A stretch of DNA of 28,162 nucleotides from a virus: positions 1 through 28,162 of the IMG/VR virus record IMGVR_UViG_3300021520_000010. One strand, given 5' to 3'. The notes below the pieces were generated by a model. The model saw nothing but the letters and a program-made list of their open reading frames with translations, was not told the DNA's origin and ran no database searches. Shown one piece after another: positions 2,086 through 26,921 of the stretch (position 1 is its first letter; every line of letters starts with the position of its first letter). The position numbers and the translations under genes are program-made.

Positions 2086-2132
2086 TGTTTATAACTATCA
2101 TTTGACTTTATGCCGGTTATGGTATATCTTTG
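2086..2132 (+). promoter_or_regulatory. Promoter of terminase small subunit with shared upstream box
   Basis: TTTG (2101-2104), 20 bases, then TATCTTTG (2125-2132) fit the Bacteroidota promoter pattern exactly. The 19 bases ending at the -33 element, TGTTTATAACTATCATTTG (2086-2104), match the box found at three other promoters here. Transcription should begin near 2138, which excludes any start codon before that point. Confidence 0.7.
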
Positions 2133-2157
2133 CCGGTTAACTAATTCACAATGTAAA

Positions 2158-2739
2158 ATGATTGATCAACCCGATACCACACAAATAGAAGAGGGAAATA
2201 AGGTACATTTACGAATACACAAATATTACCCGCCTTTGCCTGATTGCCCTATCTTAATGTTATCAGATCAGGAGAAGGAAGCCAGGGTAAAATTGTTTAA
2301 AAACTATTTGCGCTATAGGTTGACAAATCACTCTACCGCTCCGCTATACAGCAACCCGGACGACATACAACTAATGGTTGATAGTTATTTTGATACCCTT
2401 GACCCCGTAACTATTGACATTAATAAAGGCGGTAAATCATTTACCATTAAACCATACACAATCACGGGATTATGTTTGTACCTGGGTTATGAATCCCGAT
2501 TTTCATTTTATGACGTTGAAAAGGTAAACGGATATGCACACGTTATAAAAACCGCGCGTCAAAGAATTGAAAATCATTATGAAAACTGTTTAATGATGGG
2601 TGCGCCTGCTGGGCCTATCTTTGCGCTCAAAAATATGTCATGGACTGATAAAACCGAACAAACCATCAACCAGACAATTCGGGAGGTGAAAATTATCATC
2701 AACGACGTGAATACCAATGAATTAATAGACAAAGTTTAG
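2158..2739 (+). CDS. terS: Terminase small subunit
   Basis: A 193-residue protein that recognises phage DNA for packaging. The central part (YTITGLCLYLGYESR, then FSFYDVEK) is a helix-turn-helix of the kind seen in small terminases. It is followed by the typical block in which a helix (IKTARQRIENHYE) leads to GAPAGPIFALKNMSWTDK, close to the family pattern G.P.G.IFALKN.GW.DK. I chose the ATG at 2158, not an in-frame ATG at 2110, because 2110 lies inside the promoter and upstream of the expected transcript start. The gene stands alone: the large subunit is about 6 kb away on the other strand, which is unusual. Confidence 0.88.
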   Translation: MIDQPDTTQIEEGNKVHLRIHKYYPPLPDCPILMLSDQEKEARVKLFKNYLRYRLTNHSTAPLYSNPDDIQLMVDSYFDTLDPVTIDINKGGKSFTIKPYTITGLCLYLGYESRFSFYDVEKVNGYAHVIKTARQRIENHYENCLMMGAPAGPIFALKNMSWTDKTEQTINQTIREVKIIINDVNTNELIDKV

Positions 2740-2961
2740 CCTTTCCCAGTCAGTAATAGCGTCACTAATTCAGATCAATGTTTGTATAGCGTTGATCTAT
2801 TGCCGTTTACAGCCGTTTCATTATTTCTACATAAAATAATAACATTTTAAGCCGGGCACCTGGTCCGGGTTGATCCGATAGGGGGGGGTGATCACCAGGA
2901 CCGGCTCCCTTTCCCACCCATCCATAAAAATTTTCATTTTTCAGAACATTCCGTCGCGTTA

Positions 2962-3102
2962 TTATTCATTTCTGACCACATCAGGTGGCGTAGGTTGTGA
3001 AATATTGGCCGTATTGGTGTTATTGCGCCATTCTATTATGGTCGACTTGCTATGCTTAAGAATACAATTATTGCGAAGTTTGTCATAAACAGGGTCATCT
3101 CG
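2962..3102 (-). pseudogene. Possible remnant of a small gene (no start codon)
   Basis: On the minus strand a 46-residue frame runs from just after a TGA (3105-3103) to TAA (2964-2962). Its translation (DDPVYDKLRNNCILKHSK, then IIEWRNNTNT and QPTPPDVVRNE) looks like real protein, with mixed polar residues and normal codons, but there is no ATG, GTG or TTG in frame. An ATG lies just upstream in another frame (3106-3104), and skipping one base after its second codon would join the frames, so a frameshifted gene is possible. No family is recognised. It sits beside the origin-like repeats, so a former replication protein is only a guess. Confidence 0.3.
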
Positions 3103-3114
3103 TCATGAGGTTTT

Positions 3115-3355
3115 TCTGACAAACTTAACAATCTGACAAGCCCAAAAACAGTTTGTCAGAAGTTAAATTACTATCATTCATTACGTTATAGCGTTTTCTG
3201 ACAATCTGACAAAAAAAGCGTCTCCAAGTTTATTATATATTTTAAAAACACCAACATATTATACATATACTTGTCATATTGTCAGAATATATATATATAT
3301 ATAATAATGTCAGGTAGTTACGGTTCTGACAAACTTTCTGACAAACTTCTGACAA
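3115..3355. repeat. TCTGACAA iteron cluster with AT-rich tract, putative replication origin
   Basis: The octamer TCTGACAA occurs on the plus strand at 3115, 3132, 3197, 3205, 3325, 3337 and 3348, and inverted (TTGTCAGA) at 3153 and 3279. The last three are near-tandem with 11-12 base spacing and the extended form TCTGACAAACTT, about one helical turn apart. Between the groups lies an AT-rich tract (about 3213-3310) that includes a run of alternating TA. Iterons plus an AT-rich unwinding element, directly beside a helicase and primase, are the usual layout of an initiator-bound origin. The rest of 2740-3356 holds no intact gene, only the remnant above, a run of eight G (2881-2888) and a 10-base palindrome GGTGATCACC (2887-2896). 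Confidence 0.6.
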
Positions 3356-3356
3356 A

Positions 3357-4613
3357 CTAAAATGGAGGTTCATCTGTCAGATCCTGTACCGGTACTGTTT
3401 CCTTTGTAAACTGTTCACGTTTAAATAGATAAGGTCTTGATGACTTTGGTTCTCCATTTGTGAACGGAATGAAATATTCTGTTTTTTCGGGTAATTTCAG
3501 ATTAAAATCTTTTTTCATTGTATCCCTTATGAATGCTAAGTCTACGCGTGAATCATGCTCAAAGAATTTTTTCTTAATATTCATTGAATCTGCCATAAAT
3601 TCTGACACATCTTTGAGTTCGTTCAGGAATAAATCTTCGATCATTATGCGGAGTGATTTATAAAGCCATGATTTTGATTCACGCTTGACGCTTTCAAGTG
3701 AGGCATTGATAAGTTCCAATGGTGTAAATCCTGATCTGTCAACTGTGAAGTCGATTGGTGGAAGTGTGGTCAGGTGGTGCAGAAAGGCCGGTATCTCCTG
3801 GGCCAGGTTTGTCTCGATGTCGTGGTTGAATATGGTGGGTAGTGGAACCTTGCGGATGAAGAAGCGTATCTCCTCCTCGTCGATCCGGGCGAACTTGTCC
3901 TCGTTGTTGGATGTCATGATGATCTTACCGAAGAATGGTAGCGAGTAATGGTTGACGAACTTCTGATTAACTGTGATGAACTTGCCGGTTGCCAGGGATT
4001 TGATTTTCTCGACGGTGATGGCCTTTTCGATTAGGGTTTCTTCAACTGCTATTATGTTCGAGGTGGAATAGGCGAGGTTGAACTGAGATTGAAGGTCCTC
4101 TGGCGATATGACGACCATGTTGGCACCGAATATCATGTTCAGCCAGTTGACAAAGGTGGTCTTGCCGGTCTGACGGTCTTTAGAAACCAAAACGAGTACT
4201 GGTGCCATCCTGCACGGGTGCAGGTATAACATCTGGAGGTATCTCATCCCCAGGTGATACTGTTCACCAAATATATGGTGCATCAGAATCTCAGACCACT
4301 TGATACTGCCGGGTTTGGGTTTGTGCGAGAATGGTTTGTACAGGTTGTACAGGTTGGCTAAGAATGGTTTATAGTTCACATTATCGGGCATCATCGTGAA
4401 GTCTGCGAACTTGCGGATGGCGCCGAATACATCCTTGCCAAAGTCTGTTTTGATCTCGTCTTTCTTCCAGACTTTTAATTCGGTGCGGGTCATGCCGAAT
4501 CTGTCTGTTTTCTGAATGATGCGGAAATAATCGGCTCCAATCCTTACATAATTGTCAACACGGTCGACGTATTCACCGTTCTGGTCCGTCTTGAGAAATT
4601 TTTGCTTAGTCAT
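3357..4613 (-). CDS. SF3-type replicative helicase (primase-helicase, DUF5906-like)
   Basis: A 418-residue P-loop ATPase that should unwind phage DNA ahead of the polymerase. Walker A is SKDRQTGKT (residues 144-152), with Ser in place of the usual first Gly. Walker B is IIAVEE (187-192), and the sensor-1 strand with its Asn is IIMTSNN (231-237), followed by Arg residues (243, 250) suitable as an arginine finger. This spacing fits superfamily 3 helicases of the D5/DUF5906 group found in phages and plasmids. The start overlaps the primase stop by 8 bases (ATGACTAA), so the two are probably translated together and act as a primase-helicase pair. The stop codon lies against the last iteron. Codon use changes near 3720: AT-rich for the C-terminal third, GC-rich before it. 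Confidence 0.82.
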   Translation of the reverse strand: MTKQKFLKTDQNGEYVDRVDNYVRIGADYFRIIQKTDRFGMTRTELKVWKKDEIKTDFGKDVFGAIRKFADFTMMPDNVNYKPFLANLYNLYKPFSHKPKPGSIKWSEILMHHIFGEQYHLGMRYLQMLYLHPCRMAPVLVLVSKDRQTGKTTFVNWLNMIFGANMVVISPEDLQSQFNLAYSTSNIIAVEETLIEKAITVEKIKSLATGKFITVNQKFVNHYSLPFFGKIIMTSNNEDKFARIDEEEIRFFIRKVPLPTIFNHDIETNLAQEIPAFLHHLTTLPPIDFTVDRSGFTPLELINASLESVKRESKSWLYKSLRIMIEDLFLNELKDVSEFMADSMNIKKKFFEHDSRVDLAFIRDTMKKDFNLKLPEKTEYFIPFTNGEPKSSRPYLFKREQFTKETVPVQDLTDEPPF

Positions 4614-5505
4614 GTTTCAGGATTAAGGGTTTGTTTTTGCCTTGGTTTAATGCCCATCGTGCTGTTTTTTTGTAACCTGGTATTCCTTTTTTGAGATACC
4701 CGTGATTCTCAATGTGGAAGTCGATCATCTGCATCGCCTCCCAGTCACTCAGGTATCCGGTAGCGACATAACCACCGATTGAAAGGCAAAGGCTCCTGAG
4801 TGGCGGGTGGCCGCAGTCGGTGATGTTACTGAATCCGGTGTGGATCATCTTGACGCAGGACTCTTTGTCCTTGTTTGTGATCTGAATGAATGGTGCGTTG
4901 GACGGGTTAATACTGTCCAAATCATTAACTTTCACACCTTTTATAGTCCATAGATCAGCGTCGTCACGTGATAATAGTTCCGGGTCCCATGACTGGAATA
5001 ATGGCAGTACCGCGTTTTGTCCGGACGAATCGAAGCCGGCGTACTGCTCCATCTCGGCTGCGATTCCGAAGTAGTATTCTTTAAACTCTGACACGCTATG
5101 CACCTCCGGGATTCGGACCAGGCATTTAACCCCGCTTTTGGAAGGAGATAACCATGAGACTACGACCGATTTGTATTCATCAAAAAGGTATTGTTTAAGA
5201 TCCGGAGCGTTGTCCAGATGATCAAAGTCGATCACCAGCAGCCCCGTGAACTTCACAATGTCCGTGTACCGCCTGTACTGGCCGACGTTGACGCATGGTG
5301 TGAAGTAGTATAGGTTGTTCTGTTTGAGATCGGCCTTGAGCTTCTTGTTCTTGTCCAGTTCGGCTTGTTCGATCTGCCTGAACACATCCTTGACAGAATC
5401 TTTCGGGTTCTGTTGCGCCCTGATAAACTGATCAAGCGTTACCCATCCAATCGGGTTGTTGGACTTGACCCGTGCAGGGTAGTATTGGAATATTATCTGT
5501 TCCAT
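4606..5505 (-). CDS. PrimPol-type primase, BT4734/VirE N-terminal-like
   Basis: A 299-residue protein resembling the BT4734-like or VirE N-terminal family, a Bacteroidota branch of archaeo-eukaryotic primases. Visible pieces are YFTPCVNVGQYRRYTDIVKFTGLL (positions about 67-90) leading into VIDFDHLD (91-98), whose Asp93 and Asp95 would bind metal, and SPSKSGVKCLV (120-130), the nucleotide-binding loop. The C-terminal part (residues 230-299) is helical and may be a primase C-terminal domain (LSIGGYVATGYLSDWEA). In this family the helicase is often fused; here it is a separate gene overlapping by 8 bases. It should make primers for phage replication near the origin repeats. Confidence 0.8.
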   Translation of the reverse strand: MEQIIFQYYPARVKSNNPIGWVTLDQFIRAQQNPKDSVKDVFRQIEQAELDKNKKLKADLKQNNLYYFTPCVNVGQYRRYTDIVKFTGLLVIDFDHLDNAPDLKQYLFDEYKSVVVSWLSPSKSGVKCLVRIPEVHSVSEFKEYYFGIAAEMEQYAGFDSSGQNAVLPLFQSWDPELLSRDDADLWTIKGVKVNDLDSINPSNAPFIQITNKDKESCVKMIHTGFSNITDCGHPPLRSLCLSIGGYVATGYLSDWEAMQMIDFHIENHGYLKKGIPGYKKTARWALNQGKNKPLILKHD

Positions 5506-5615
5506 GAATAAAAAGCCAGCAGAAGTATTGTCTCGGACATACCAATGGGGATAACCGCTGCGCCGTCACCGGATGCAGATACTTCATGCTGGACTTTTTT
5601 AAGGATTTTTTGCAT
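5493..5615 (-). CDS. Small leader ORF overlapping the primase start (40 residues)
   Basis: ATG at 5615-5613, TAA at 5495-5493. The product begins MQKILKKVQHEVSASGDG and ends IPIGMSETILLLAFYSWNR. It overlaps the first 13 bases of the primase gene in another frame, so ribosomes finishing here could restart on the primase. A -7-like TATATTTG lies 22 bases upstream. Composition is protein-like, with a basic amphipathic N-terminus and a short hydrophobic C-terminus, but I recognise no family. Confidence 0.5.
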   Translation of the reverse strand: MQKILKKVQHEVSASGDGAAVIPIGMSETILLLAFYSWNR

Positions 5616-5636
5616 TGGTAATTTTAAAGACGGTGG

Positions 5637-5644
5637 CAAATATA
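5637..5644 (-). promoter_or_regulatory. -7 element of the primase-helicase operon
   Basis: On the minus strand TATATTTG (5644-5637) matches TAnnTTTG exactly and precedes the 40-residue ORF. No good TTG is present at the expected -33 distance, so this promoter may be weak or need an activator. The shared box at 5672-5690 lies just upstream, in the opposite orientation, so binding there could affect both directions. Confidence 0.45.
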
Positions 5645-5671
5645 GTACGAAAAGTATCATTTAAGTACCAC

Positions 5672-5718
5672 TGTTGATAAGTTTTACTTGCATCGGGGTC
5701 AAGTTGGTTGTAATTTAG
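5672..5718 (+). promoter_or_regulatory. Promoter of the accessory operon with shared box
   Basis: Box TGTTGATAAGTTTTACTTG (5672-5690) ends in the -33 TTG. After 20 bases comes TAATTTAG (5711-5718), one base off TAnnTTTG. Transcription should start near 5724. The box differs by only two bases from that of the virion operon at 10371-10389. Confidence 0.65.
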
Positions 5719-5729
5719 CCGGCGCTAAA
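5714..5729. promoter_or_regulatory. Inverted repeat over the -7 element, candidate operator
   Basis: TTTAGC (5714-5719), CGGC, GCTAAA (5724-5729): perfect 6-base arms centred just after the -7 element and covering the expected transcript start. A dimeric repressor bound here would block the accessory operon. A looser match, TTAG-CGGTCA-CTAA, is seen at 8983-8995 downstream of the lipoprotein gene. Confidence 0.4.
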
Positions 5730-5738
5730 CGACACATA

Positions 5739-6359
5739 ATGTTCACTCAAAACATTCATACCCCCGAAAGCAAATGCGATCATACCTACCAAGGTTATGT
5801 GTCGGTTAGCCTTTTGCCGCAGGGGGTTTATTTTACTCTAAACATGGTCAAGAAGACACTATCAGCCCATAGCATCAAATCCGCCAAGGATTTTAAAAAG
5901 GATATGCAGGAAATGTGCGATGATCCTGATTCAGGATTCACGAGCGTATCCATGTTAATCGGAGGGAAAGATTACATACCAATAGCAACCAAATCACAAA
6001 CACCAAGCAAAATGAGCAAAGTCGAAACATTATCCTTGAAATGCGTCCTGACAGATGAGGAAATGCTGGCAATCAGCAAAGACTTGTCGGAACACCTGAA
6101 CAAGAAGAAGGCCGCCGAAGATGATCTGGCATCATTCTCAGCGCAAAAAAAGGCCGAAATTAAAGGTCACGAAGCCATTATCAACAAGTCGGCCATGTTG
6201 ATCAACTCCGGATCAGAGTATCGAAACATAAAGTGTGAAGTGGTGATTGAACCAGCAAAGGACACCGTTTCATGGATCCGTCAGGACACAGGCGACCTTG
6301 CTCAGCAGGAACGTCCGATTCCACAGAGGTATCTTCAGGCTGAACTTGACATTTTTTAA
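5739..6359 (+). CDS. Conserved phage protein of unknown role, helical C-terminus
   Basis: The ATG at 5739 gives 206 residues; an in-frame TTG at 5688 is inside the promoter and was rejected. The N-terminal half (to about residue 90) is mixed and unrecognised. The C-terminal half resembles a protein common in phages: a long charged helix (LTDEEMLAISKDLSEHLNKK, then AEDDLASFSAQKKAEIKGHE) followed by a small strand-rich part with SGSEYRNIKCEV and a conserved-looking ending, DTG-(L/E)-ERPIP. Such genes often lie next to phage replication and recombination genes, but their function is not known. It is first in the accessory operon, with the nuclease gene 4 bases downstream. Confidence 0.75.
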   Translation: MFTQNIHTPESKCDHTYQGYVSVSLLPQGVYFTLNMVKKTLSAHSIKSAKDFKKDMQEMCDDPDSGFTSVSMLIGGKDYIPIATKSQTPSKMSKVETLSLKCVLTDEEMLAISKDLSEHLNKKKAAEDDLASFSAQKKAEIKGHEAIINKSAMLINSGSEYRNIKCEVVIEPAKDTVSWIRQDTGDLAQQERPIPQRYLQAELDIF

Positions 6360-6363
6360 TCCT

Positions 6364-6843
6364 ATGTCCAAGCCACCCACCTCCCTCCAACGCCTCAACG
6401 CCATGATCATCGCCTACAAGAAGGCGAAGTACGGTCCTAATCAGCCCGGACTGGAATACAATTCGATGAAGTGTAACTCAGCGAACAGCTTGACACAATG
6501 CGTGATCAAGTTCCTGCAACTTAAAGGTCATCAGGCTGAGCGGATCAACACCCAGGGGCGCCGGATTGACCAGACCCGTATCGTTACGGATTGTTTGGGA
6601 TTCAAGCGCCAGATCGGTTCAGTCAAATGGGTTCCGGGAACGGGAACGCGCGGATCAGCCGATATTAGCGCCACTGTGAACGGTCGGTCGGTTAAGATCG
6701 AGGTAAAATGGAAGGCAGATCGTCAGTCGAGCGATCAGAAGGCATATCAGGCGAATGTGGAGATGGCCGGCGGTGTATATCTGATCGTTAGGACGCTTGA
6801 TGATTTGCTTGACTGGTATGAAACATTCGCACCATGCCAGTAG
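6364..6843 (+). CDS. VRR-NUC domain nuclease
   Basis: A 159-residue PD-(D/E)XK nuclease of the VRR-NUC type. The catalytic set is visible: Asp100 in RGSADI, Glu113 and Lys115 in KIEVKWK, and a Gln-rich helix (SSDQKAYQANVE) before the VYLIVRTLDD strand that names the family. These small phage enzymes are thought to cut branched DNA such as replication or recombination intermediates. The start at 6364 is chosen because the preceding gene stops at 6359; upstream in-frame codons would overlap that gene and read unlike protein. The last codons overlap the next gene by 10 bases. Confidence 0.82.
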   Translation: MSKPPTSLQRLNAMIIAYKKAKYGPNQPGLEYNSMKCNSANSLTQCVIKFLQLKGHQAERINTQGRRIDQTRIVTDCLGFKRQIGSVKWVPGTGTRGSADISATVNGRSVKIEVKWKADRQSSDQKAYQANVEMAGGVYLIVRTLDDLLDWYETFAPCQ

Positions 6844-7040
6844 CTACCTGTATGCTGCATGGGAAACCGGTGAGGTACTTCGAGTCCCGGTTCATCCGTA
6901 TGGGTGGGCGCGAGTTTGAGATAATAGCGACAACAGCAACAGGTAAGGGTGTCTACGACGCGCTCGACGAGGTGAAGAACGACCGGGGTGAGTATAAGAC
7001 GTTTAAGAGGTTGGAATTGTTAAACTTGGTAGAGAAATGA
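6834..7040 (+). CDS. Small conserved-looking protein (68 residues)
   Basis: Starts inside the end of the nuclease gene (10-base overlap) and ends by overlapping the next ATG by 4 bases, so it is translationally coupled on both sides. The product is a small basic, strand-rich protein with the sequence FIRMGGREFEIIATTATGKG in its first half. No family is recognised. The tight coupling is the best evidence that it is a gene. Confidence 0.65.
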   Translation: MPVATCMLHGKPVRYFESRFIRMGGREFEIIATTATGKGVYDALDEVKNDRGEYKTFKRLELLNLVEK

Positions 7041-7444
7041 AAACAGAACTTGACATCGTAACCGAATTGACTGATTTTATCAGGGAACTGGAAAGCAGAA
7101 TTGAAAAGGCAAAACAGGCTATTTCAGCATTGACCGGAATTATGGTGGTGCCTTTGAAGGAACAGTTAAAAATGGCAGAGGCATTACCCCCTCGCTGGCA
7201 CAAAATACCCCCCCCGGTTGACGATAAAGTACAGTCTCTGCTTTGCCCGTGCGGAAATCCGTTCACCCCTAAAAGCAAAAGATCAACAGTTTGTCCAAGG
7301 TGCGCCAAAAAAGCAAGTAACCAAAAACAAAGGGCAAAAAAAAACTTTGTGAAGGATCCCAAGAAAACATGGAAAGCGAAAGTGAAACCAGTGACCCAGG
7401 AAACACTTCAGCAATTTACGCAGACGACTTCCACCGAAAGTTAG
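7037..7444 (+). CDS. Coiled-coil and zinc-ribbon protein
   Basis: A 135-residue protein with two parts. Residues 1-50 are a charged helix (ELTDFIRELESRIEKAKQAI), likely a coiled coil. Residues 70-89 hold a four-cysteine zinc site, CPCGNPF...VCPRCAKK (Cys70, Cys72, Cys86, Cys89), followed by a very basic tail, which suggests nucleic-acid binding. It starts in a 4-base ATGA overlap with the previous gene, and its 3' end overlaps the next small gene by 76 bases. Confidence 0.7.
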   Translation: MKTELDIVTELTDFIRELESRIEKAKQAISALTGIMVVPLKEQLKMAEALPPRWHKIPPPVDDKVQSLLCPCGNPFTPKSKRSTVCPRCAKKASNQKQRAKKNFVKDPKKTWKAKVKPVTQETLQQFTQTTSTES

Positions 7445-7518
7445 AACAACTCAGAAAAGAATCGCAGCAATGCAGGGTGTTTCATCCATACAGACCCGAT
7501 ATAAACAGACAATTTTAA
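7369..7518 (+). CDS. Small overlapping gene (49 residues)
   Basis: ATG at 7369, TAA at 7516-7518. The first half lies in another frame within the end of the zinc-ribbon gene. The product (MESESETSDPGNTSAIYADD, then FHRKLEQLRKESQQCR, ending RPDINRQF) is polar with a helical middle. It fills the gap before the next small gene, which starts 4 bases after its stop. No family recognised. It is supported by position and composition only. Confidence 0.5.
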   Translation: MESESETSDPGNTSAIYADDFHRKLEQLRKESQQCRVFHPYRPDINRQF

Positions 7519-7522
7519 TCCT

Positions 7523-7648
7523 ATGACCCCATCCGAAGAGTATCGCCTTATCCAAGACCGCCTGATCCTGATCATGTCAGGCAGGGCACCCAAATCCGGC
7601 AAGGGAGCATTGATGCGTAGGTTGAAGGTACTGTATAAACTAATCTAG
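7523..7648 (+). CDS. Small basic protein (41 residues)
   Basis: ATG at 7523, TAG at 7646-7648. The product (MTPSEEYRLIQDRLILIMSG, then a basic tail KGALMRRLKVLYKLI) looks helical and basic. It has 4 bases before it and 5 after it, which fits the compact operon. No family recognised. Confidence 0.5.
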   Translation: MTPSEEYRLIQDRLILIMSGRAPKSGKGALMRRLKVLYKLI

Positions 7649-7653
7649 GTAAA

Positions 7654-7890
7654 ATGAAAATAACCATTCAGATCTCGGTGATTGACGTCAAGATGGACGA
7701 TTTGGGTATCGAACAGCCCGAAAAGTTTGTACCGTTCCATTTCAATGCGAATAATTTTTATGGTTATTGGATTGTCCAGGATGAGCATCCTGTTGAGATA
7801 TGTTTTTACGTAGGTGGAAATAAATTCTTTACATCTTATTCTGCCAAAGCGGTTGAATTATTTGAATCATTGTTAAGGATGCCGAAATGA
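7654..7890 (+). CDS. Small protein of unknown role (78 residues)
   Basis: A strand-rich, aromatic-rich, acidic protein (FHFNANNFYGYWIVQDEHPV in the middle). It overlaps the glycosyltransferase start by ATGA (7887-7890), so the two are probably translated together. No domain recognised. Partnership with the glycosyltransferase is only an inference from coupling. Confidence 0.6.
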   Translation: MKITIQISVIDVKMDDLGIEQPEKFVPFHFNANNFYGYWIVQDEHPVEICFYVGGNKFFTSYSAKAVELFESLLRMPK

Positions 7891-8657
7891 ACGTGATAAT
7901 ATTCAGCAAGGACCGCCCGGCCCAACTCGACCTACTACTTCGGTCTATGTCCCGGTTCTGGCCTCAGTCAGACGACATAGATGTTAAGATTCTCTGGATG
8001 GCCACCAGCGTTGACTACGTGGCCGGGTATCATAAGTTGTATCGGGATGAAAACCGATGCTGGTTTATGCAAGGAAAATTTAAACCAGACCTGATTGCGA
8101 TGATCGACCCGTTAGACCAGCATACCATGTTCCTCTGCGACGATGATGTGTTCATTGGTCCATACACCACCGATCTGTCGCCACTTGATGATCCAAACGT
8201 GCTGACCATTTCGCTACGACTGAACCCACATCTTACACACTGCCAACCATCCGCAGGATCGTCAGTTGCACATTCCCCCCACCCTGGTGAGATTTGGTGG
8301 CAGGCATCTATAGGAGACTACTCATACCCAATGTCCCTGAACGGGCATATCTTCCGAACCTCCGACATATTGCCAATCCTTAAATCCCACGACTACCAGA
8401 ACCCTAACGAACTGGAGGTGGTGATGGATCGGAACACACCGAACCGCCCGATCATCAAGTGTTACGATCGGACAACTGTACTGAACTTGCCCATCAACCA
8501 GGTGCAGACCGCATGGGAGAACCCGCACGGTAACGTGTCGGCTGAATGGTTGAACGAACAGTTCCTCGGCGGTAAGGTGATTGATCTAGAACCGTATGTT
8601 GGGTATCTCAATACGGCGTGTCACGAAATATTGCCGGTTAAATTGATCACCCCTTGA
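7887..8657 (+). CDS. Phage glycosyltransferase (GT-A fold, family 2-like)
   Basis: A 256-residue enzyme. The start MNVIIFSKDRPAQLDLLLRS is the nucleotide-sugar-binding strand and helix of GT-A enzymes, and FLCDDDVFI (residues 82-90) carries the Asp triad that holds the metal and sugar nucleotide. The C-terminal half is less conserved, as expected for the acceptor side. It could decorate phage DNA, virion proteins or the host surface; the sequence does not say which. It is the last gene of the accessory operon, and its stop codon lies within the -33 region of the lipoprotein promoter. A second, unrelated-looking glycosyltransferase is at 18217. Confidence 0.75.
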   Translation: MNVIIFSKDRPAQLDLLLRSMSRFWPQSDDIDVKILWMATSVDYVAGYHKLYRDENRCWFMQGKFKPDLIAMIDPLDQHTMFLCDDDVFIGPYTTDLSPLDDPNVLTISLRLNPHLTHCQPSAGSSVAHSPHPGEIWWQASIGDYSYPMSLNGHIFRTSDILPILKSHDYQNPNELEVVMDRNTPNRPIIKCYDRTTVLNLPINQVQTAWENPHGNVSAEWLNEQFLGGKVIDLEPYVGYLNTACHEILPVKLITP

Positions 8658-8684
8658 CATCACCCCCTCAATACCGTATCTTAG
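8654..8684 (+). promoter_or_regulatory. Promoter of the lipoprotein gene
   Basis: TTG (8654-8656), 20 bases, TATCTTAG (8677-8684), one base off TAnnTTTG and with the same TTAG ending as the accessory-operon promoter. The start codon at 8689 lies only 5 bases downstream, so the mRNA would be leaderless or start at the second ATG (8701). The shared 19-base box is absent. Confidence 0.55.
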
Positions 8685-8688
8685 CAGG

Positions 8689-8952
8689 ATGAAACAAACC
8701 ATGTTATTCGCGCTGATCCTGTTAGTGATGGGATGCGCCAAGTCAAGCACACAGCCGCAGCAGACCGCTCCGATAGAACCCAAAAAGATTTGCGTGGAGT
8801 GTATCGTTAACCAGGGATATGTCAATCCAGAACCTGCACTGTTCTGCTCGACAGATACAAACCAGGTAAACTTCTATATAACCACCATGAACGCCATCAC
8901 GGGAGTGAATAGCCCGACCCACATCTATACTTGCAAGGTTGTTAATAAGTAA
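8689..8952 (+). CDS. Small phage lipoprotein, possible superinfection-exclusion factor
   Basis: An 87-residue precursor. A short basic start is followed by a hydrophobic segment (MLFALILLVMG) and a lipobox LVMG-C, with Cys16 as the lipidation site. The mature part has four more Cys (two in ICVEC, one in LFCSTD, one in YTCK) that could form two disulfides. The second ATG at 8701 gives an equally good signal and avoids a leaderless start. It has its own promoter and a terminator, so it is a separate unit between two unrelated operons. Phage lipoproteins such as T5 Llp block receptors after infection; that role here is inference. An outer-spanin role is less likely because no inner partner is adjacent. 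Confidence 0.72.
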   Translation: MKQTMLFALILLVMGCAKSSTQPQQTAPIEPKKICVECIVNQGYVNPEPALFCSTDTNQVNFYITTMNAITGVNSPTHIYTCKVVNK

Positions 8953-9038
8953 TCGAACCGGATCGGGGAGAACTGATGTAACTTAGCGGTCACTAACACT
9001 TCGTAACGTAGATGATGTCACTCTGAACATCTCACGCC

Positions 9039-9064
9039 AAAGCCGGAACACTACCGGCTTTTTT
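9039..9064 (+). terminator. Intrinsic terminator after the lipoprotein gene
   Basis: Stem AAAGCCGG (9039-9046), loop of seven, CCGGCTTT (9054-9061) continuing into a T run. It lies between the converging lipoprotein and large-terminase genes. On the minus strand the arm is followed by TTTGG only, so it should work mainly for plus-strand transcripts. Confidence 0.75.
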
Positions 9065-10220
9065 AATTCCATTGCTTGAGAAAACGACGCTTCTTGTTGA
9101 GTTTAGAAATTGCGATATATCTCAGCGCATCACATAGATGGTCGTAACCGCCGACGGGTTTACTGATTGGTTTCCCGGTGAACTTATCTTTTTGCCACCG
9201 GTACGCCCGTAATTCCTTAATCATGTTTATCGAATCAGAAGTTACGTGCATTTTGTGTTGTTTCAGCAGGTCTATCCCGCGCATAATTGAATCCGGACCC
9301 TTTGCAGCCCCTCGAATCATCCACCCGCCGTCACGGAGTTCTTTAAGTGATTTCGGCTCAGAATTATCTGCCCAAATCTCATCAATACCGCGAACGATCC
9401 CGATTTCTTCAAGTTTCTTAGATATATCCCGGTTTGTCAGCCCATTTTCATACATTAACTCCTTGATGTATAGTTCTCCATCCATCATGCTGAGTTGAAC
9501 CACCGCTGTTTCGTCAACTGAGAATCCCCAATCAAGACCGAATCCAAGGAGTTTCGCATCATCGGGCACCCTTTCACACTGATCCCAATTTTTGTAAATA
9601 TTATCTTCCAGTTCGCCATATTCTCCCAAACCATACACTTTCCACCATTCCGGATGTGTAAATTGTTTTGCCTCGATACTTTTAATGATTTTGGGAGATA
9701 AGAACCGATTCATTTTATAGGTTGAAACAATCTCAGCTACATCTTTATTTCTTGGTATATCAAGGACCCAAAAAGGACCAGTTGGGTTGAAGTCAATTAT
9801 ACTCACCTTGGATGTACGAATATCAAGCTGTTCAAATACTTCAAAAGAAATATTATTTGCCTCATTCACGTAAAGTATTTCGCGCCTGGGACCTCTTACC
9901 TTATCAGGGCTATCTGCGCTGAAGAACTGTATTGTCCCCTCATTGAATCGGTAACTATGGTTTGTCTTATCATGCATGGCCTCAATATACAGACCATCAT
10001 TTTTTAAAATATCAAAGAAATCTTTCATCACACCACGACGCAGAAATGGCATTGTTTCCCCCACAATACTGATCAGCATTTTTCTTTTGTGTGCTATCAG
10101 AATCAGCATTTCCAGTATGCTATAAGTCTTTGAAGAACTGGTGCCGCCCCTGTTGATGATTAGCTTTTTGCCGTCAACGTATGCTTGTAGATTGAGTTTA
10201 AATACTTCTGTTGTATCCAT
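9063..10220 (-). CDS. terL: Terminase large subunit (PBSX-like)
   Basis: A 385-residue packaging motor. The ATPase part has Walker A RGGTSSSKT (residues 24-32) and a Walker B-like ILYVNEANN (115-123) in which Asn119-Glu120 replaces Asp-Glu, as is usual for the PBSX group. The RNase H-like nuclease part has Asp230 in GLDWGF, Asp285 in IWADNSEPK and Asp360/Asp364 in YDHLCDALRY. Length is slightly short but complete. It is transcribed leftward, away from the portal and capsid genes, from its own promoter at 10304-10351, and a terminator-like hairpin lies between promoter and start codon. Confidence 0.92.
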   Translation of the reverse strand: MDTTEVFKLNLQAYVDGKKLIINRGGTSSSKTYSILEMLILIAHKRKMLISIVGETMPFLRRGVMKDFFDILKNDGLYIEAMHDKTNHSYRFNEGTIQFFSADSPDKVRGPRREILYVNEANNISFEVFEQLDIRTSKVSIIDFNPTGPFWVLDIPRNKDVAEIVSTYKMNRFLSPKIIKSIEAKQFTHPEWWKVYGLGEYGELEDNIYKNWDQCERVPDDAKLLGFGLDWGFSVDETAVVQLSMMDGELYIKELMYENGLTNRDISKKLEEIGIVRGIDEIWADNSEPKSLKELRDGGWMIRGAAKGPDSIMRGIDLLKQHKMHVTSDSINMIKELRAYRWQKDKFTGKPISKPVGGYDHLCDALRYIAISKLNKKRRFLKQWN

Positions 10221-10240
10221 ACATTAAACTTTACATTAAC

Positions 10241-10272
10241 AAAAAACGCTCAGTGTAACCAGCACCGAGCGT
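10241..10272 (-). terminator. Terminator-like hairpin in the large-terminase leader (candidate attenuator)
   Basis: On the minus strand ACGCTCGGTG (10272-10263), a 7-base loop, and CACTGAGCGT (10255-10246) form a 10-pair stem with one G-U pair, followed by six T (10246-10241). It lies downstream of the promoter and 21 bases before the ATG. The plus strand has no T run after the stem, so it acts leftward only. Confidence 0.7.
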
Positions 10273-10303
10273 CTATAAACCAAACCATTAATTATGAACT
10301 TGT

Positions 10304-10351
10304 CAAAGATACGCAATCCCGCATGGAAAAGTCAAGTGTAATTTATCAACA
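10304..10351 (-). promoter_or_regulatory. Promoter of terminase large subunit with shared box
   Basis: On the minus strand box TGTTGATAAATTACACTTG (10351-10333) ends in the -33 TTG; 21 bases later comes TATCTTTG (10311-10304), an exact -7 match. It is divergent from the virion promoter, the two boxes lying 19 bases apart as an inverted repeat (TTATCAACA ... TGTTGATAA). Confidence 0.7.
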
Positions 10352-10370
10352 CGGCAATTATAAATAACTA

Positions 10371-10416
10371 TGTTGATAAGTATTACTTTATTTTTACCGA
10401 TTATGCTTTATATTTG
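10371..10416 (+). promoter_or_regulatory. Promoter of the virion operon with shared box
   Basis: Box TGTTGATAAGTATTACTTT (10371-10389), 19 bases, then TATATTTG (10409-10416), an exact -7 match. The -33 triplet is TTT, not TTG, so this promoter may depend more on the box. It faces the virion genes, with a leader of about 80 bases before the ATG at 10500. Confidence 0.65.
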
Positions 10417-10499: not shown

Positions 10500-11147
10500 A
10501 TGCGCTCATGCACCTGTCCTGTCGGAACTTACATCGCCAATATTGGGTCACTTCCCTGTCCCGCATCATTCGGCCAAGTTCAAAAACTTTTATTCCAACG
10601 CGCCGCACAAGTAGCCGGATTTGGAACCCTTACCACCACAAAACTTCTTGCAACCTGGACTACACTGTTAACAGCCGTTGACAGTACGAAGGTCGTTGTA
10701 ACACCATTCGTTGCTGGATTTACCCCTGAAAATGGTAAACCACGTGAGTTTGGATCAGGAAACGAAGTCCGTGATGGTGTTCCCATCATATTTGGAACTG
10801 GTCCCACGAAGGTCGTTGTGAAGATTTACGAACCTACCACTGCAATCATTGCCAACTTAAAGGCGCTTGAATGCGAATCACTGGAGGTCGCGTTCATAAA
10901 CGAACAGGGTTATTATGGATTCCAGGCACTGACGGCAGCTACCGGACTCCCAACAGCCAACCCGGTTGCCGCAGACAAAATGCACGGATTCAATGCACTT
11001 CAGTTCCATGTATCAGATCGAGTACTGGGTGGTTTCGATGGTCCGGACCACGTTGAGATTTCATTCTCAATGCCGGCCAACTGGTCAACAGCATTCTGCA
11101 TTGTTGCACCAACAGACCACAGCGCACTGGATCACTCTCAATCCTAA
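10500..11147 (+). CDS. Conserved Bacteroidota-phage structural protein, possible major tail protein
   Basis: A 215-residue protein that begins with a Cys-containing tip (MRSCTCPVGTY) and continues CPASFGQVQKLLFQRA, a pattern I associate with a protein common in Bacteroidota phages and prophages. The rest is strand-rich (GVPIIFGTGPTKVVVKIYE; HVEISFSMPANWSTAFCIV), which fits a tube or shell protein. No other gene between capsid and tape measure looks like a classical major tail protein, so this is the leading candidate by elimination. A head decoration role is also possible. It is the first gene after the virion promoter. Confidence 0.6.
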   Translation: MRSCTCPVGTYIANIGSLPCPASFGQVQKLLFQRAAQVAGFGTLTTTKLLATWTTLLTAVDSTKVVVTPFVAGFTPENGKPREFGSGNEVRDGVPIIFGTGPTKVVVKIYEPTTAIIANLKALECESLEVAFINEQGYYGFQALTAATGLPTANPVAADKMHGFNALQFHVSDRVLGGFDGPDHVEISFSMPANWSTAFCIVAPTDHSALDHSQS

Positions 11148-11151
11148 GTAA

Positions 11152-11412
11152 ATGAGAACGGTAACTATGACAGCACAGGGTTTGGGGGAGAAGCAATTCA
11201 CCCCCGAACACGCTTTTGCGATACTGGTTCATCAGCATACGAACCACCATGCGAGTAAGAGCTGTTGGACCATCACATCGCCGGAATGGAAATTTGAAGG
11301 TGGAAAGTTAACATTGACAAAGAACCAGAATGAAAATAAGTCAGATACAGGCATTGGTGACGAAACCCCGAAACGCAAGCGCGATACAACGGGGAGTGAT
11401 CCACAGCCGTAG
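11152..11412 (+). CDS. Small protein preceding the portal (86 residues)
   Basis: Starts 4 bases after the preceding stop. The middle (KQFTPEHAFAILVHQHTNHH, then W.I....WKFEGGKLTL) resembles short proteins found directly before portal genes in Bacteroidota phages, with a FTPEHA helix followed by a strand. The tail is charged and low complexity and overlaps the annotated portal start by 83 bases. Function is unknown; a head or packaging accessory role is inferred from position. Confidence 0.6.
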   Translation: MRTVTMTAQGLGEKQFTPEHAFAILVHQHTNHHASKSCWTITSPEWKFEGGKLTLTKNQNENKSDTGIGDETPKRKRDTTGSDPQP

Positions 11413-12979
11413 GCTGAGATTTCACAATGATGCCACTTTATCATATTACGATGCGCTTGGAACATACTTACACGACTTTCTCCGATGGGTAAAAGAATTA
11501 CTCCCGGCTGACAAGTACGACCGGTTTACAAAGTTGATCACCTACCCGGTTGCGACGAATGAACTTGTTGAGAATATATGGAAGAATCTGGCCAGGGTAT
11601 TTGAGGGTGAAAACAGGACGATTGATGTAAAGTTTGACGACAAGAGTTTACTTGTAGATTTTAAAAAGTTCTTTGACAATTCTGATTTTCAAAAAAAAAT
11701 GTTTCAGGCTATCCAGTCTGATATTGATAGTGTAGTCGTGTGTGATTTCCCGGTAGAAGGAGGAAATCCTTATTACTACATCGTTCCATCCACGTCACTG
11801 ATCGACGTAGACACGGATGGTGACGATGTGATTTACGTGATTTTCGAGGACGGGAATGGGGATATTGTTTCAATGGATGCCGAGTTTACCAGGGTGTTTG
11901 ACGGTAAAGACCGGAATAACCTGAAGCTAATCAGTGAAAGCCCGAATGTAGTCGGAGAAACCACTGCCAGGATGATCTGGTGTGAACCATTGACATCGGA
12001 AAATCCCATCAACCGGAAGTCTCCAATGTCGTCGGTTTTGGGCGATCTTGACAGGTTACTGTTTGATTGTGTTTCGCGCGACTATGCAGAGATGTACGGG
12101 AAGTTCCCAATTCTTGTTTCGTATGATATTGATGAAACATATACTGGCGGCAAGTCTGATCAGCGCAACATGAAGGAGGGTGCCGGCAAGCAGTTCCTTG
12201 GACCAGGTTCTATTACCACAACACCAATGCCATCAAGTAAAGATGAACCCGACCTGAATACTAACGCTGTTAGGTTTGTCAACGCAGACCCGGACATATT
12301 AAAGTTTATTGATCAGAGGTTGACTGCGGACAAAGACAGAATATTCAAGTCAGTGGTTGGCGACAGCGGGGAGGTTCGCAACGATGCTGCGAAGAACGAC
12401 AAACAACTGGATTCAGTGTTTGAGTCCAAGCAGGACGTAATCAACAAACTGAAACACCCATTAGAGGAGATTCACGAATGGGTTATCGAGACCTTGTGTA
12501 AGATGGCTTACGGTGATCGGTTCCTTGATTGTGAGGTTGATTACGGATCTCAGTTCTACCTCACGGACGAATACACACTGTTGGCTAAACTTGCTGAAGC
12601 GAAATACCGGAAGTCACCGGATGCAGTCATATCAGACATCACACACCAATACTTTGAAACGAAATATCGGGCCGATTCTGAGACTAAGAAACGCATGAAG
12701 ATAGTACTCGACCTCGACCCGTTTCCGTCAAAAAACATCGACGAGGTTTACGTAATATTCTCTACCTCGCCGGATCTGGTTGGATTGGAAAATATGTGGG
12801 TCAAGATGCACATGGACGCTTTACTACAACGGTTTGAAAGGGAGAATGTACCACTTACACAATTTGGGAATCAGTTTGAGTATTATGAAAAAATTGAGAT
12901 TATTAACAAAACAATAAGGGGTTATGCAAAAGGAAATAAAATTGATACCGGCCAACAAAGACAGCCGGTACCAAATTAA
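11330..12979 (+). CDS. Portal protein
   Basis: A protein of up to 549 residues that forms the dodecameric channel at the capsid vertex. The call rests on size, on position before scaffold and capsid genes, and on the sequence pattern of Bacteroidota-phage portals: RRLRFHNDATL near residue 28, KYDRFTKLITYPVATNELVENIW (about 62-84), the SVLGDLDRLLFDC helix before the crown, and the ADKDRIFKSVVGD...QDVINKLKHPLEEIHEWV clip and stem helices. The ATG at 11330 overlaps the previous gene by 83 bases; an in-frame GTG at 11396, after CGGGGA, is an alternative that keeps the conserved part. Confidence 0.78.
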   Translation: MKISQIQALVTKPRNASAIQRGVIHSRRLRFHNDATLSYYDALGTYLHDFLRWVKELLPADKYDRFTKLITYPVATNELVENIWKNLARVFEGENRTIDVKFDDKSLLVDFKKFFDNSDFQKKMFQAIQSDIDSVVVCDFPVEGGNPYYYIVPSTSLIDVDTDGDDVIYVIFEDGNGDIVSMDAEFTRVFDGKDRNNLKLISESPNVVGETTARMIWCEPLTSENPINRKSPMSSVLGDLDRLLFDCVSRDYAEMYGKFPILVSYDIDETYTGGKSDQRNMKEGAGKQFLGPGSITTTPMPSSKDEPDLNTNAVRFVNADPDILKFIDQRLTADKDRIFKSVVGDSGEVRNDAAKNDKQLDSVFESKQDVINKLKHPLEEIHEWVIETLCKMAYGDRFLDCEVDYGSQFYLTDEYTLLAKLAEAKYRKSPDAVISDITHQYFETKYRADSETKKRMKIVLDLDPFPSKNIDEVYVIFSTSPDLVGLENMWVKMHMDALLQRFERENVPLTQFGNQFEYYEKIEIINKTIRGYAKGNKIDTGQQRQPVPN

Positions 12980-13286
12980 AGAAAATGAGAAGGGGTTTTA
13001 TCACCTGAAGTTTGTGCTCGAAATGCCAACTGCTGACGAGGCGAACGTAATCACCGATGAAAAATTTCAAACCTTTTCGGTGATGGGTTTCAAGCAGTAT
13101 TTGGAAAACAAAAAACATTTCAACTTTAAGTCAGAGGAAATCATACACGATCCAACCATTCCTGACGAGCAACAAGGTAAGGTGGTCGAAGTTCAGGCAA
13201 CACAACCGGAAAAAACACAGCCGTATTTCGGTAGTGAAAAACACAAGGCTGATTTATTAAAAAGGAAACAATCTAAAACCCAGTAA
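12924..13286 (+). CDS. Small protein overlapping the portal end (120 residues)
   Basis: The ATG at 12924 gives a 56-base overlap with the portal gene. Residues 1-85 look folded (LIPANKDSRYQIKENEKGFY, HLKFVLEMPT), and the C-terminal third is charged and probably disordered. The next in-frame ATG is 34 codons later and would remove part of the folded segment, so the longer form is preferred. No family recognised. Its place between portal and scaffold suggests a head-assembly role. Confidence 0.65.
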   Translation: MQKEIKLIPANKDSRYQIKENEKGFYHLKFVLEMPTADEANVITDEKFQTFSVMGFKQYLENKKHFNFKSEEIIHDPTIPDEQQGKVVEVQATQPEKTQPYFGSEKHKADLLKRKQSKTQ

Positions 13287-13288
13287 AA

Positions 13289-13798
13289 ATGAAAAAATTA
13301 ATCTCATTACTCTGCGCCTTGTTGATCTCGACGGTTTTACTTGCGCAGACAAACACAATCACGATGGTGCCAGACACCGCCGGAACTATCATCGGAGTGG
13401 ATAACGCCACAACTACAGGCGGAAACATCCATAAGTTCACCGCCGGTGTAATCAATACCGGATATTCCGGATGGGCCGTTGAGGTCTACGTCACCACCTC
13501 AGGGACTCACGCCACTGACAGTACCCGTGTTGAAGTTTACGGGTCAATGGACGGGACGAACTATTTTAAAATTACCGACCTTGGAACTCCTTGGTTGCTT
13601 GGTACAGCTAAGTATCGTGCCGGAACAGACTTGGTTGGTTATAAATTATCCAGTGAGGGTACAGGTGCAGTTGGGTGGGTATGGAAATCAGCAGCCCCCA
13701 TTACGTACCGATATATCCAGGTCAAGATTGCACAGTTAAAAAAGTTATCCATCCTGACGGTCAACCGATGCAAACTACATCTGTTTAAAAGTCAATAA
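13289..13798 (+). CDS. Secreted-type virion-operon protein with signal peptide; possible -1 frameshift near its end
   Basis: A 169-residue precursor. It begins with a clear Sec signal (MKKLISLLCALLISTVLLAQ, cut before or after Gln20). The rest is Thr/Gly-rich and strand-rich (VEVYGSMDGTNYFKITDLGT, YRYIQVKIAQ), like a jelly-roll or Ig-type surface protein. Codons TTA AAA AAG at 13736-13744 form A-AAA-AAG in phase, the classic -1 slippery heptamer. A slip gives the ending VIHPDGQPMQTTSV (stop 13786-13788) in place of LSILTVNRCKLHLFKSQ. The function is unknown. A Sec signal inside a head gene cluster is odd. Confidence 0.65.
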   Translation: MKKLISLLCALLISTVLLAQTNTITMVPDTAGTIIGVDNATTTGGNIHKFTAGVINTGYSGWAVEVYVTTSGTHATDSTRVEVYGSMDGTNYFKITDLGTPWLLGTAKYRAGTDLVGYKLSSEGTGAVGWVWKSAAPITYRYIQVKIAQLKKLSILTVNRCKLHLFKSQ

Positions 13799-13820
13799 TA
13801 TTCACTAACAAAGGGGCAAA

Positions 13821-14681
13821 ATGGCAAAATTAAGTAAAGAACTGGCCGCTGAGGCCATTAAGGGGATTGAAGGAGAAGAAGTTTATGTGTTCAGCACAAA
13901 GGAACATAATGAACTGCTTGATAATTACAAGAAGACCACGATTGAGGCAGAACTGAAAAGCCGTATCGCAAAGGTTTATGATGATGTTGATGCTGATTTT
14001 ACGACCGTAACGGGCCTAAAAAAGCCGGATGATCAAAAAACCTACAAATACTGGCCGGAAGTTGCGAAACAGTTGAAGGAAAAGGCTGATACCGCCGCCG
14101 CCGAAGTTGAGAAACTTAAAACAGGCGGTTCACCTGACCTGCTGAAGGAAATTGAAGCACTTCGCAAAGCTTCACTCGAAAAGGACAACGAATGGAAGGC
14201 AAAACTGGCAAAGGTTGAAACAGAATTGACCGTTAAGGACATTAAAAACACCCTGGATGCGTCGTTTCATGACCTTAAACTATCAAACTTGCCCAAACCA
14301 GTCCTTGACACGTTCATTGAAAGTGCAAAGAATAAACTGACACAATCAGCAAAGATTGTAAATGGGGAGATTGTTTTCATGGATGCCAATGGCGAACCCA
14401 GGATGAACAAGGAAACCTACAAGCCATACACCGCATCTGAGTTGATGGCGATGGAACTTGAACCGATTGTGGAAAAAGGGGATCAGCATAAAGGGGGAGG
14501 TTCGGCAAAGCCGGGTATCTCAAAAGACAAAGATGGGAAAATTGATGTAAGCCTGATGGTGCCCATAGCAGTAAAGACAAGGGTGGAACTCACGAAGTTC
14601 CTCATCGAGTCAGGACTGCCAAATAACACCGAAGAGTTTTTCGCAGCTTACGATAAGTATTCAGTTAATCTACCGATTTAA
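13821..14681 (+). CDS. Head scaffolding protein
   Basis: A 286-residue, mostly helical, charged protein immediately before the capsid gene, the usual scaffold position. Residues 85-150 form a long coiled coil (KQLKEKADTAAAEVEKLK, LLKEIEALRKASLEKDNEW), followed by a helical domain (LDASFHDLKLSNLPKPVLDTF) and a Gly/Lys-rich linker near residue 225. The C-terminal 40 residues end in a helix (VELTKFLIESGLPNNTEEFF), which could bind the capsid. No protease motif is seen. Scaffold is favoured over a minor head protein because of the coiled coil and gene order. Confidence 0.72.
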   Translation: MAKLSKELAAEAIKGIEGEEVYVFSTKEHNELLDNYKKTTIEAELKSRIAKVYDDVDADFTTVTGLKKPDDQKTYKYWPEVAKQLKEKADTAAAEVEKLKTGGSPDLLKEIEALRKASLEKDNEWKAKLAKVETELTVKDIKNTLDASFHDLKLSNLPKPVLDTFIESAKNKLTQSAKIVNGEIVFMDANGEPRMNKETYKPYTASELMAMELEPIVEKGDQHKGGGSAKPGISKDKDGKIDVSLMVPIAVKTRVELTKFLIESGLPNNTEEFFAAYDKYSVNLPI

Positions 14682-14728
14682 CAACGAACAGGGGCAGACA
14701 AAATTATTAACCTCTAAATTTTAAAAAA

Positions 14729-15751
14729 ATGGCTTATTTAGCAGCAACTGCCCTTCTGGAATACAGGCAGAAATACGCACAGTCCAATTTGGACAAGCAG
14801 GAGAACCGTGGAAGCGGATTCGGTCTGCTCTCTCTCGCCAAGCGCGACACGCCAAAGCTGATCACCCCACAGGCGCTTATCAATGCTCGTGGAACGGCTG
14901 CACGGTTAACCAAGGTTCCCGTATTACAGAAGATCACCTACACTCCTGGTTCAGCCCGTAGTTGTACCGGAGCCACCACAAATTCCGTTTCCGCGCTTGT
15001 CACAATCACATGGGTGACGTGGACCGCTGGTTTCCACATGGTTCCTTCGCAGTATGACAACAACGACATTGCCTACGTGGAGGATTTCAAAAACAAACTG
15101 TTTCACCTGGAGCGCAAACTCGCCGTTGACCTTGAGGGCGCCATCTACACCAAGTTGGACACCGTTAAGTCAACGTCATTCACCGCTGATGGTGCCCCGT
15201 TCCCTTTTACCGCGAACGTGATCACCGTACCGAACGCCGCGAAGAAAACCTACCTGAACGAAATCTATCAGTCTATGTATGCTGATGATTTCAATGGTCC
15301 GTTCAACATCGTTGGTTCACCAGCACTGATGAGCGCGAATGCGTTCTACAATAATCAGGGCGCCGGAAACCAGGAGAACACTATGTTCCAATTTGGCGAT
15401 TTCAACTTCGATTATTCCAACCGTGTCACCAAATCTGCTGGTGCGGAATCCACGTTCTTTGTGATGCCTCACGGTTCACTGGCTATCCTTGACTGGATTG
15501 ATCCGGATTCACGGGCTGGCAGAAGGATAAGCGAATCCAACTACTACACCTCGTTTAACCTTCCGATGGTTGGACTCAATGTAGGGTTACACGTTCAGAC
15601 CGCCTGCGCTGATAACACCACTGAAGCCGGAGCGGGACTGGAAGCATCTGTTACCGAGAACTACAACTTCTCCCTTGACTATGCGCTGATCACTCCGTAC
15701 ATCTCTGCCGGAGCCGGCCCGATCTTCAAGGCTGACATCACTACCCTTTAA
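14729..15751 (+). CDS. Major capsid protein
   Basis: A 340-residue protein following the scaffold. Features that fit HK97-fold capsids are an N-terminal helical arm (LLEYRQKYAQSNLDKQENRG), an extended loop with Gly, a spine-helix region (VEDFKNKLFHLERKLAVDLEGA, about residues 116-137), a P-domain segment (FNIVGSPALMSANAFYNNQG), and an axial-domain ending (NYNFSLDYALITPYISAGA). The codon use is richer in C-ending codons than its neighbours, as expected for a highly expressed gene. The call is by position, length and pattern; no single signature motif proves it. Confidence 0.78.
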   Translation: MAYLAATALLEYRQKYAQSNLDKQENRGSGFGLLSLAKRDTPKLITPQALINARGTAARLTKVPVLQKITYTPGSARSCTGATTNSVSALVTITWVTWTAGFHMVPSQYDNNDIAYVEDFKNKLFHLERKLAVDLEGAIYTKLDTVKSTSFTADGAPFPFTANVITVPNAAKKTYLNEIYQSMYADDFNGPFNIVGSPALMSANAFYNNQGAGNQENTMFQFGDFNFDYSNRVTKSAGAESTFFVMPHGSLAILDWIDPDSRAGRRISESNYYTSFNLPMVGLNVGLHVQTACADNTTEAGAGLEASVTENYNFSLDYALITPYISAGAGPIFKADITTL

Positions 15752-15833
15752 TTAGGGACCGTCACGGTTCAATGCGCTCGTACCTAACGAACCGCAATCC
15801 CTTCGGGGATTCACCTCCTTAATAGCAAGCCCA
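15752..15833 (+). promoter_or_regulatory. Structured leader between capsid and neck genes, with a UUCG hairpin and a 16S-tail-like sequence
   Basis: CGGTTC pairs with GAACCG about 20 bases later, and AATCCC-TTCG-GGGATT (15796-15811) is a perfect six-pair stem with a UUCG loop. Immediately after it comes CACCTCCTTAA (15812-15822), identical to the core of the 16S rRNA 3' tail. There is no T run, so it is not a standard terminator. It may be an RNA processing or stability element that lowers expression after the capsid gene. Confidence 0.4.
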
Positions 15834-17123: not shown

Positions 17124-17124
17124 C

Positions 17125-26079: not shown

Positions 26080-26083
26080 AGAA

Positions 26084-26920: not shown

Positions 26921-26921
26921 A

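Follow-up and report, generated by a model that had tools for sequence, protein, structure and literature searches.

Four promoters of a Bacteroidota phage, in a viral DNA stretch of 28,162 nucleotides (nt; IMG/VR virus record IMGVR_UViG_3300021520_000010, 45% GC; referred to here as the window), share a 19-base box that joins a DnaA-box 9-mer to an ordinary core promoter. The same fusion occurs in phages with which the window has no detectable protein in common. Nearly all bacteria possess DnaA, and the onset of chromosome replication is marked by its activity. The composite is a host DnaA box joined, at constant spacing, to the -33 element of a promoter for the housekeeping sigma factor, and host DnaA probably binds these boxes and activates the promoters. 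In the proposed mechanism, host DnaA would sit around -47, beside RNA polymerase, and contact the polymerase from upstream like a class II activator, most likely stimulating transcription, so that the terminase, accessory and virion operons would follow the level of host DnaA or its nucleotide state. We infer both that DnaA binds during infection and that its effect is activation rather than repression, the latter being favored by the position of the box upstream of -33. The distribution of the composite suggests that the window phage and at least two unrelated phages let host DnaA control some of their genes. A broader proposal, that several unrelated Bacteroidota phages independently placed host DnaA boxes in a constant register upstream of their promoters, by which host DnaA activates whole regulons and ties their expression to the host replication cycle, is more tentative and falls slightly short of an even chance.

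Twelve of the 19 columns (1-4, 6-9, 11, 15, 17 and 18) are invariant across the four boxes, whose sequences were all found where the original prediction had placed them, the minus-strand copy running from 10351 down to 10333 (Table 1). From the start of the box to the first T of TAnnTTTG the distance is 39 (2086 to 2125), 39 (5672 to 5711), 40 (10351 to 10311) and 38 (10371 to 10409), and neither the promoter at 1934 (minus) nor the one near 8654 has the box. The central claim of that prediction, a shared cis-element in register with four promoters that marks a subset of promoters, is therefore borne out. The box is kept while the sequences upstream of it and between it and the -7 element differ completely among the four copies. 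With up to three mismatches allowed, the consensus has five matches in the window against 0.38 expected, a number reached by none of 100 shuffles; the fifth is a weak, intragenic match at 2701 (minus). In leave-one-out scans, each box falls in the top 4 of 56,288 positions. These scans confirm that the four boxes are real and far beyond chance.

Table 1. Boxes, -7 elements and associated genes of the window.
Feature	Position	Strand	Remarks
Box 1, TGTTTATAACTATCATTTG	2086..2104	+	9-mer TGTTTATAA (2086-2094), spacer, -33 TTG
Box 2, TGTTGATAAGTTTTACTTG	5672..5690	+	predicted DnaA box TGTTGATAA (5672-5680), -33 TTG
Box 3, TGTTGATAAATTACACTTG	10333..10351	-	predicted DnaA box (10351-10343), -33 TTG
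Box 4, TGTTGATAAGTATTACTTT	10371..10389	+	predicted DnaA box (10371-10379), -33 region with TTT for TTG
-7 element TATCTTTG, terminase small subunit promoter	2125..2132	+	
-7 element TAATTTAG, accessory operon promoter	5711..5718	+	one departure from TAnnTTTG
-7 element TATCTTTG, terminase large subunit promoter	10304..10311	-	
-7 element TATATTTG, virion operon promoter	10409..10416	+	
Terminase small subunit gene (gp3-like)	2158..2739	+	Pfam GP3_package 1.2e-08; phrog_606 5.4e-16
Accessory operon 3' of box 2	5844..8657	+	includes a 171-amino-acid protein
VRR-NUC/endonuclease-like gene, accessory operon	6364-6843		weak endonuclease match, phrog_93, 4e-04
Zinc-motif protein	within accessory operon, 5844..8657	+	
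Glycosyltransferase-like gene, accessory operon	7887-8657		label by eye; no family match
Terminase large subunit gene (PBSX-type)	9063..10220	-	phrog_2 9.6e-36
Virion operon	10500..28160	+	phrog_8193, 7376, 7970, 7231, 25337; last gene runs off the window end

The core promoters themselves are of a familiar kind. The housekeeping sigma consensus of Bacteroidota is TTTG / TANNTTTG (PMC6847099), and the four promoters, with TTG near -33, 19-21 nt and TAnnTTTG, are of this type. Those at 2125 and 10311 are exact, that at 5711 has one departure in the -7 element and that at 10409 has TTT for TTG; TAnnTTTG is matched exactly by three of the four -7 elements. The 3' end of the box (ACTTG, ATTTG or ACTTT) is itself the -33 element; what the box adds to the core promoter is therefore limited to roughly its first 14 bases. 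The box thus breaks down into the 9-mer, a spacer of 7 nt (nTnTnAC) and the -33 element. When the T of the -7 element is set at -12, as in PMC6847099, the 9-mer TGTTGATAA spans about -51 to -43. A dedicated sigma factor, one of the regulators that the original prediction had entertained, is not needed for an ordinary Bacteroidota core promoter, and a dedicated phage sigma regulon was rejected, since it needs non-host -7 and -33 elements and those of the window equal the host housekeeping consensus. All four promoters share their -33 and -7 elements with Bacteroidota housekeeping promoters, and the DnaA box is added to them. An SOS operator read by LexA was likewise rejected: the operators of Bacteroidetes are GGA-N5-TCC or CTAA-N5-TTAG (PMC8565304), and the box has neither.

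At box 2, a divergent promoter of the helicase and primase genes has a -7 element TATATTTG at 5637..5644 (minus), with the 9-mer of box 2 inverted 36 nt upstream and no TTG at -33 of this promoter (5644). Box 2 might tentatively serve both its own promoter and this divergent one.

It is the 9-mer that points to the regulator. TTATCAACA, the complement of TGTTGATAA, is a DnaA-box-like word. When all 9-mers were counted in 43 regions of about 700 nt each, upstream of dnaA in Bacteroidota genomes, TGTGGATAA, the variant seen in other phages, was the commonest (43 copies in 24 of the 43 regions; 0.42 expected), and TGTTGATAA, the 9-mer of boxes 2 to 4, had 23 copies in 14 regions (0.43 expected). 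One copy each was found of TGTAGATAA and TGTCGATAA, and extended words such as GGATAACTT are also enriched upstream of dnaA. A blind search for TGTTGATAA within 30 nt of TGTGGATAA gave matches in 15 of 198 Bacteroidota genomes, at least six of the loci lying upstream of dnaA (L085, L087, L088, L091 and L096) or dnaN (L097). These counts identify the 9-mer, on the level of sequence, as the DnaA box of Bacteroidota.

The same architecture was sought across IMG/VR with a composite pattern of 9-mer, ACTT, 19-23 nt and TAnnTTTG. Seven stretches match with TGTTGATAA and nine with TGTGGATAA, and these 16 stretches with G or T at position 4 of the 9-mer include intergenic promoters in four phage contigs. 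The four IMG/VR composites with A or C at this position all lie within open reading frames; in these scans, position 4 at phage promoters is G or T, with no other variants. Intergenic composites that precede genes are found in the 65-kb contig G001 and in the related pair G013 and G015, with a weaker case in G003. Within 4.7 kb of G001, nine promoters carry the box. At 6442, 6739, 8068, 8948, 10192 and 10798 (minus), the 9-mer begins 16 nt upstream of the -33 TTG; at 7236 and 9578 (minus) and 11087 (plus), it begins 25-26 nt upstream; at 8948 and 10192 both spacings occur in tandem. The two spacings are about one helical turn apart, as would be expected if a protein bound a module distinct from the core promoter, and they fit contact on one face of the helix. 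The boxes one turn further out, detached from -33, keep only TGTGGATAACTT, an extended word that is enriched before host dnaA as well. Inverted copies of the box occur in G001 as well, and other promoters of this contig with the same core carry A-tracts in place of the box. Four further boxed promoters lie in G013 and G015. In G001 and G013, the sequence of the boxes is TGTKGATAACTT.

These promoters bear on two explanations that involve no regulator. A mere promoter-strength element (UP-like, or an extended -33) read by RNA polymerase itself would account for the AT-richness of the box, its fusion to -33 and the A-tracts that take its place in G001. This is very improbable, as a defined 9-mer whose fourth position is G or T does not amount to an A-tract, the ends of the box are not kept upon the one-turn shift, inverted and tandem copies exist, and host promoters almost never have the box. 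Chance similarity, or duplication of one promoter with no function, is scarcely credible. The promoters of G013 are near-identical copies and those of G001 look partly duplicated, as duplication would have it, whereas in the window the flanking sequences differ completely while the box stays; chance is excluded by the scan statistics.

At an E value of 0.01, the window shares no protein with G001, G013, G015 or G003. A DnaA encoded by the phages was considered and rejected, as the window and six other contigs contain no Bac_DnaA_C domain; in this respect the original remark that the regulator is not visible in the window holds. The lack of a detectable shared protein and of a DnaA C-terminal domain together point to a host factor. 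Because the boxed contigs are all fragments, these absences are suggestive only. The presumed host-factor sites are concentrated in promoters of unrelated phages (the window, G001 and G013/G015), which represent only a few lineages. The 19-mer alone, without the -7 element, has at least 83 matches, most of them in coding sequence; among the matches listed, seven have a perfect -7 element, all intergenic and in G001, G013 or G015. Without the -7 element the 19-mer is an uninformative search pattern. Isolate phages queried with two promoter sequences as DNA gave nothing convincing.

The genes behind the boxes do not form a single temporal class. In G001 they are a cluster of small genes without an assigned function, not virion genes, and the box of G003 precedes a small gene resembling a single-stranded-DNA-binding protein (a label given by eye). 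Together with the accessory operon (5844-8657), these genes show that the box is not restricted to late genes, and the regulon is not simply late. The earlier proposal of a phage late activator is weakened accordingly: the 9-mer matches the host DnaA box, recurs in phages without a detectable shared protein and marks the small genes of G001. Overall, that interpretation recognized the shared cis-element and missed the DnaA box, and its dedicated sigma factor does not stand.

Host genomes contain the composite, but rarely, compared with four copies in the 28-kb window. The strict composite has two matches in 84,980 species genomes, one inside an open reading frame of a KSB1 metagenome-assembled genome (MAG) and one in a Bacteroidia MAG (L054), ahead of nrdD. 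A looser composite has seven matches in 296 Bacteroidota genomes (about 1.1 Gb), against one for a reversed control. Of the seven, two lie between genes, ahead of dnaA (L320) and of nrdD (L318). In Escherichia coli, dnaA and nrdAB are textbook targets of DnaA (PMC8203912). Upstream of nrdD (L054/L318, 3319-3366), a long inverted repeat lies between two inverted TGTTGATAA copies, of which one belongs to the composite promoter. The nrdD promoter was considered as a conserved host case and rejected, since the box is in one genome only.

Several observations weigh against host DnaA as the regulator. The nrdD box is not retained in family relatives. The 9-mer of box 1, TGTTTATAA, is absent from the 43 regions upstream of dnaA; it has two departures from TGTGGATAA and is the weakest DnaA-box match of the four. 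The enrichment itself was measured across Bacteroidota genomes at large. When the window is scanned with a matrix from the other phages alone, ranks 1 to 4 go to its four boxes (0 to 0.03 expected by shuffling). This result counts for the DnaA reading, but the contigs behind the matrix were found through the window's motif and the test is not fully independent; it is strong for boxes 1 and 4, which depart from the pattern used in that search, and less so for boxes 2 and 3. The contigs being fragments, a regulator common to these phages could also be encoded outside them. Finally, ten annotated phages (seven virion-related and three primase-related) have no box beside -33 in their intergenic promoters. 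Conservation among relatives with the same gene order, on which the original prediction had staked its box, thus fails at the distances available. Only two single matches occur in these relatives (AS73P1 at 18334 and FPSV-S1 at 10739), both within annotated genes. The terminase, capsid and portal proteins led to no close relatives of the window phage, and primase relatives at about 50% identity were found without the box.

At the position of the box, relatives have other, phage-specific repeated elements. In Bacteroides phage B124-14 (L238), GTTAAA/TTAAA words lie just upstream of -33 in the promoters at 2836, 4193, 6405, 24522 and 37968 (minus), and phage-specific repeats around -33 are seen in L016 (7316, 15809 and 18164) and in several promoters of L240/L241 (AATTAATTTGTCAA..; AAATAAAAGAAAATTCTTTTGGTAATTAAAA). 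Upstream repeats of this sort may be a general feature of Bacteroidota phages.

Such elements could be sites of phage-specific activators, and by extension the 19-base box may be read by a phage-encoded activator that lies outside the 28-kb fragment, its likeness to a DnaA box being convergence or mimicry. The fragmentary state of the window, the conserved bases beyond the 9-mer (T11 and A15) and the poor DnaA box of box 1 would all agree with this explanation. It is nevertheless unlikely, given that the same box recurs in phages sharing no detectable protein in their available parts, that its variation is exactly that of host DnaA boxes and that the detached boxes one turn upstream retain only the word enriched near host dnaA.

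If host DnaA does bind, its effect need not be activation. Both repression and activation by DnaA are known (PMC8203912), DnaA boxes are elements of origins, and boxes 3 and 4 are flanked by divergent promoters; repression, or boxes that mainly serve phage replication or titrate DnaA, would be compatible with these facts. This alternative is improbable. The 9-mer lies upstream of -33, the usual place of an activator, and not over -7, and a total of four or five sites is low for titration. A role as an origin is less likely because the fixed register of 38-40 nt would be unneeded for replication or titration and because a better candidate exists. Between the terminase small subunit and helicase genes, an iteron-like cluster at 3079-3381 holds about a dozen copies of TCTGACAAA and near copies on both strands, and is a candidate phage replication origin.

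Activation by host DnaA would have partial precedents. The closest are phages of Alphaproteobacteria regulated by CtrA ('lytic deferment'), for which binding and regulation were shown by electrophoretic mobility shift assays and reporters; DnaA motifs, which that study also tested in phage genomes, were not unusually distributed (PMC9437464). As here, unrelated phages independently carry sites for a host cell-cycle master regulator in their promoters, but the CtrA site is TTAA-N7-TTAA in Alphaproteobacteria, whereas the element described here is a DnaA box in Bacteroidota phages, known from sequence alone. Phages that read a host cell-cycle regulator are thus already known, and the DnaA version in Bacteroidota is the new part; among the open-licence literature, no paper was found that describes DnaA boxes serving as elements of Bacteroidota phage promoters. 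In lambda, the DnaA sites are weak and lie downstream of the pR start, whereas the window has consensus boxes upstream, in a fixed register and at several operons of one phage. What the two have in common is host DnaA acting on phage transcription: at the lambda origin, DnaA stimulates transcription from pR, probably through contact with the beta subunit of RNA polymerase (PMC8203912). The dnaA and nrdAB genes of E. coli offer another likeness, with DnaA boxes near the promoter core, and two host composites precede dnaA and nrdD; the phage targets differ in being genes for packaging, for the virion and for accessory functions, and host genomes almost lack the composite. Going by its citation in PMC9437464, Bacillus phage phi29 has promoters bound by the host developmental regulator Spo0A, which suspends the lytic cycle in sporulating cells; both regulator and host differ from those considered here.

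Should host DnaA act as proposed, a phage with its packaging, virion and accessory operons wired to DnaA would read the replication state of its host directly. The composite also provides a portable search signature (TGTKGATAA, 7 nt, TTG, 19-21 nt, TAnnTTTG). To our knowledge, few activator-dependent promoters are known in Bacteroidota, and the arrangement would inform promoter design for this phylum.

The virion operon encodes an MP2-like head protein, a portal, structural proteins and a tape measure, with kin in Bacteroides phages B40-8/B124-14 and in Croceibacter phages. The window also encodes a DUF5906 helicase and a BT4734-like primase. Small lipoproteins with a CWEC/CVEC motif, similar by eye, are encoded in the window (8689-8952), in G013 (8049-8306 and 8948-9232) and in G015 (20291-20527); between the window and the boxed regions of G013/G015 they give no match at an E value of 0.01. 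A family-2 glycosyltransferase lies within the virion operon (18217-19074), and positions 1-321 (minus) encode the start of a sliding clamp resembling DnaN (Pfam DNA_pol3_beta, phrog_947), cut by the end of the record.

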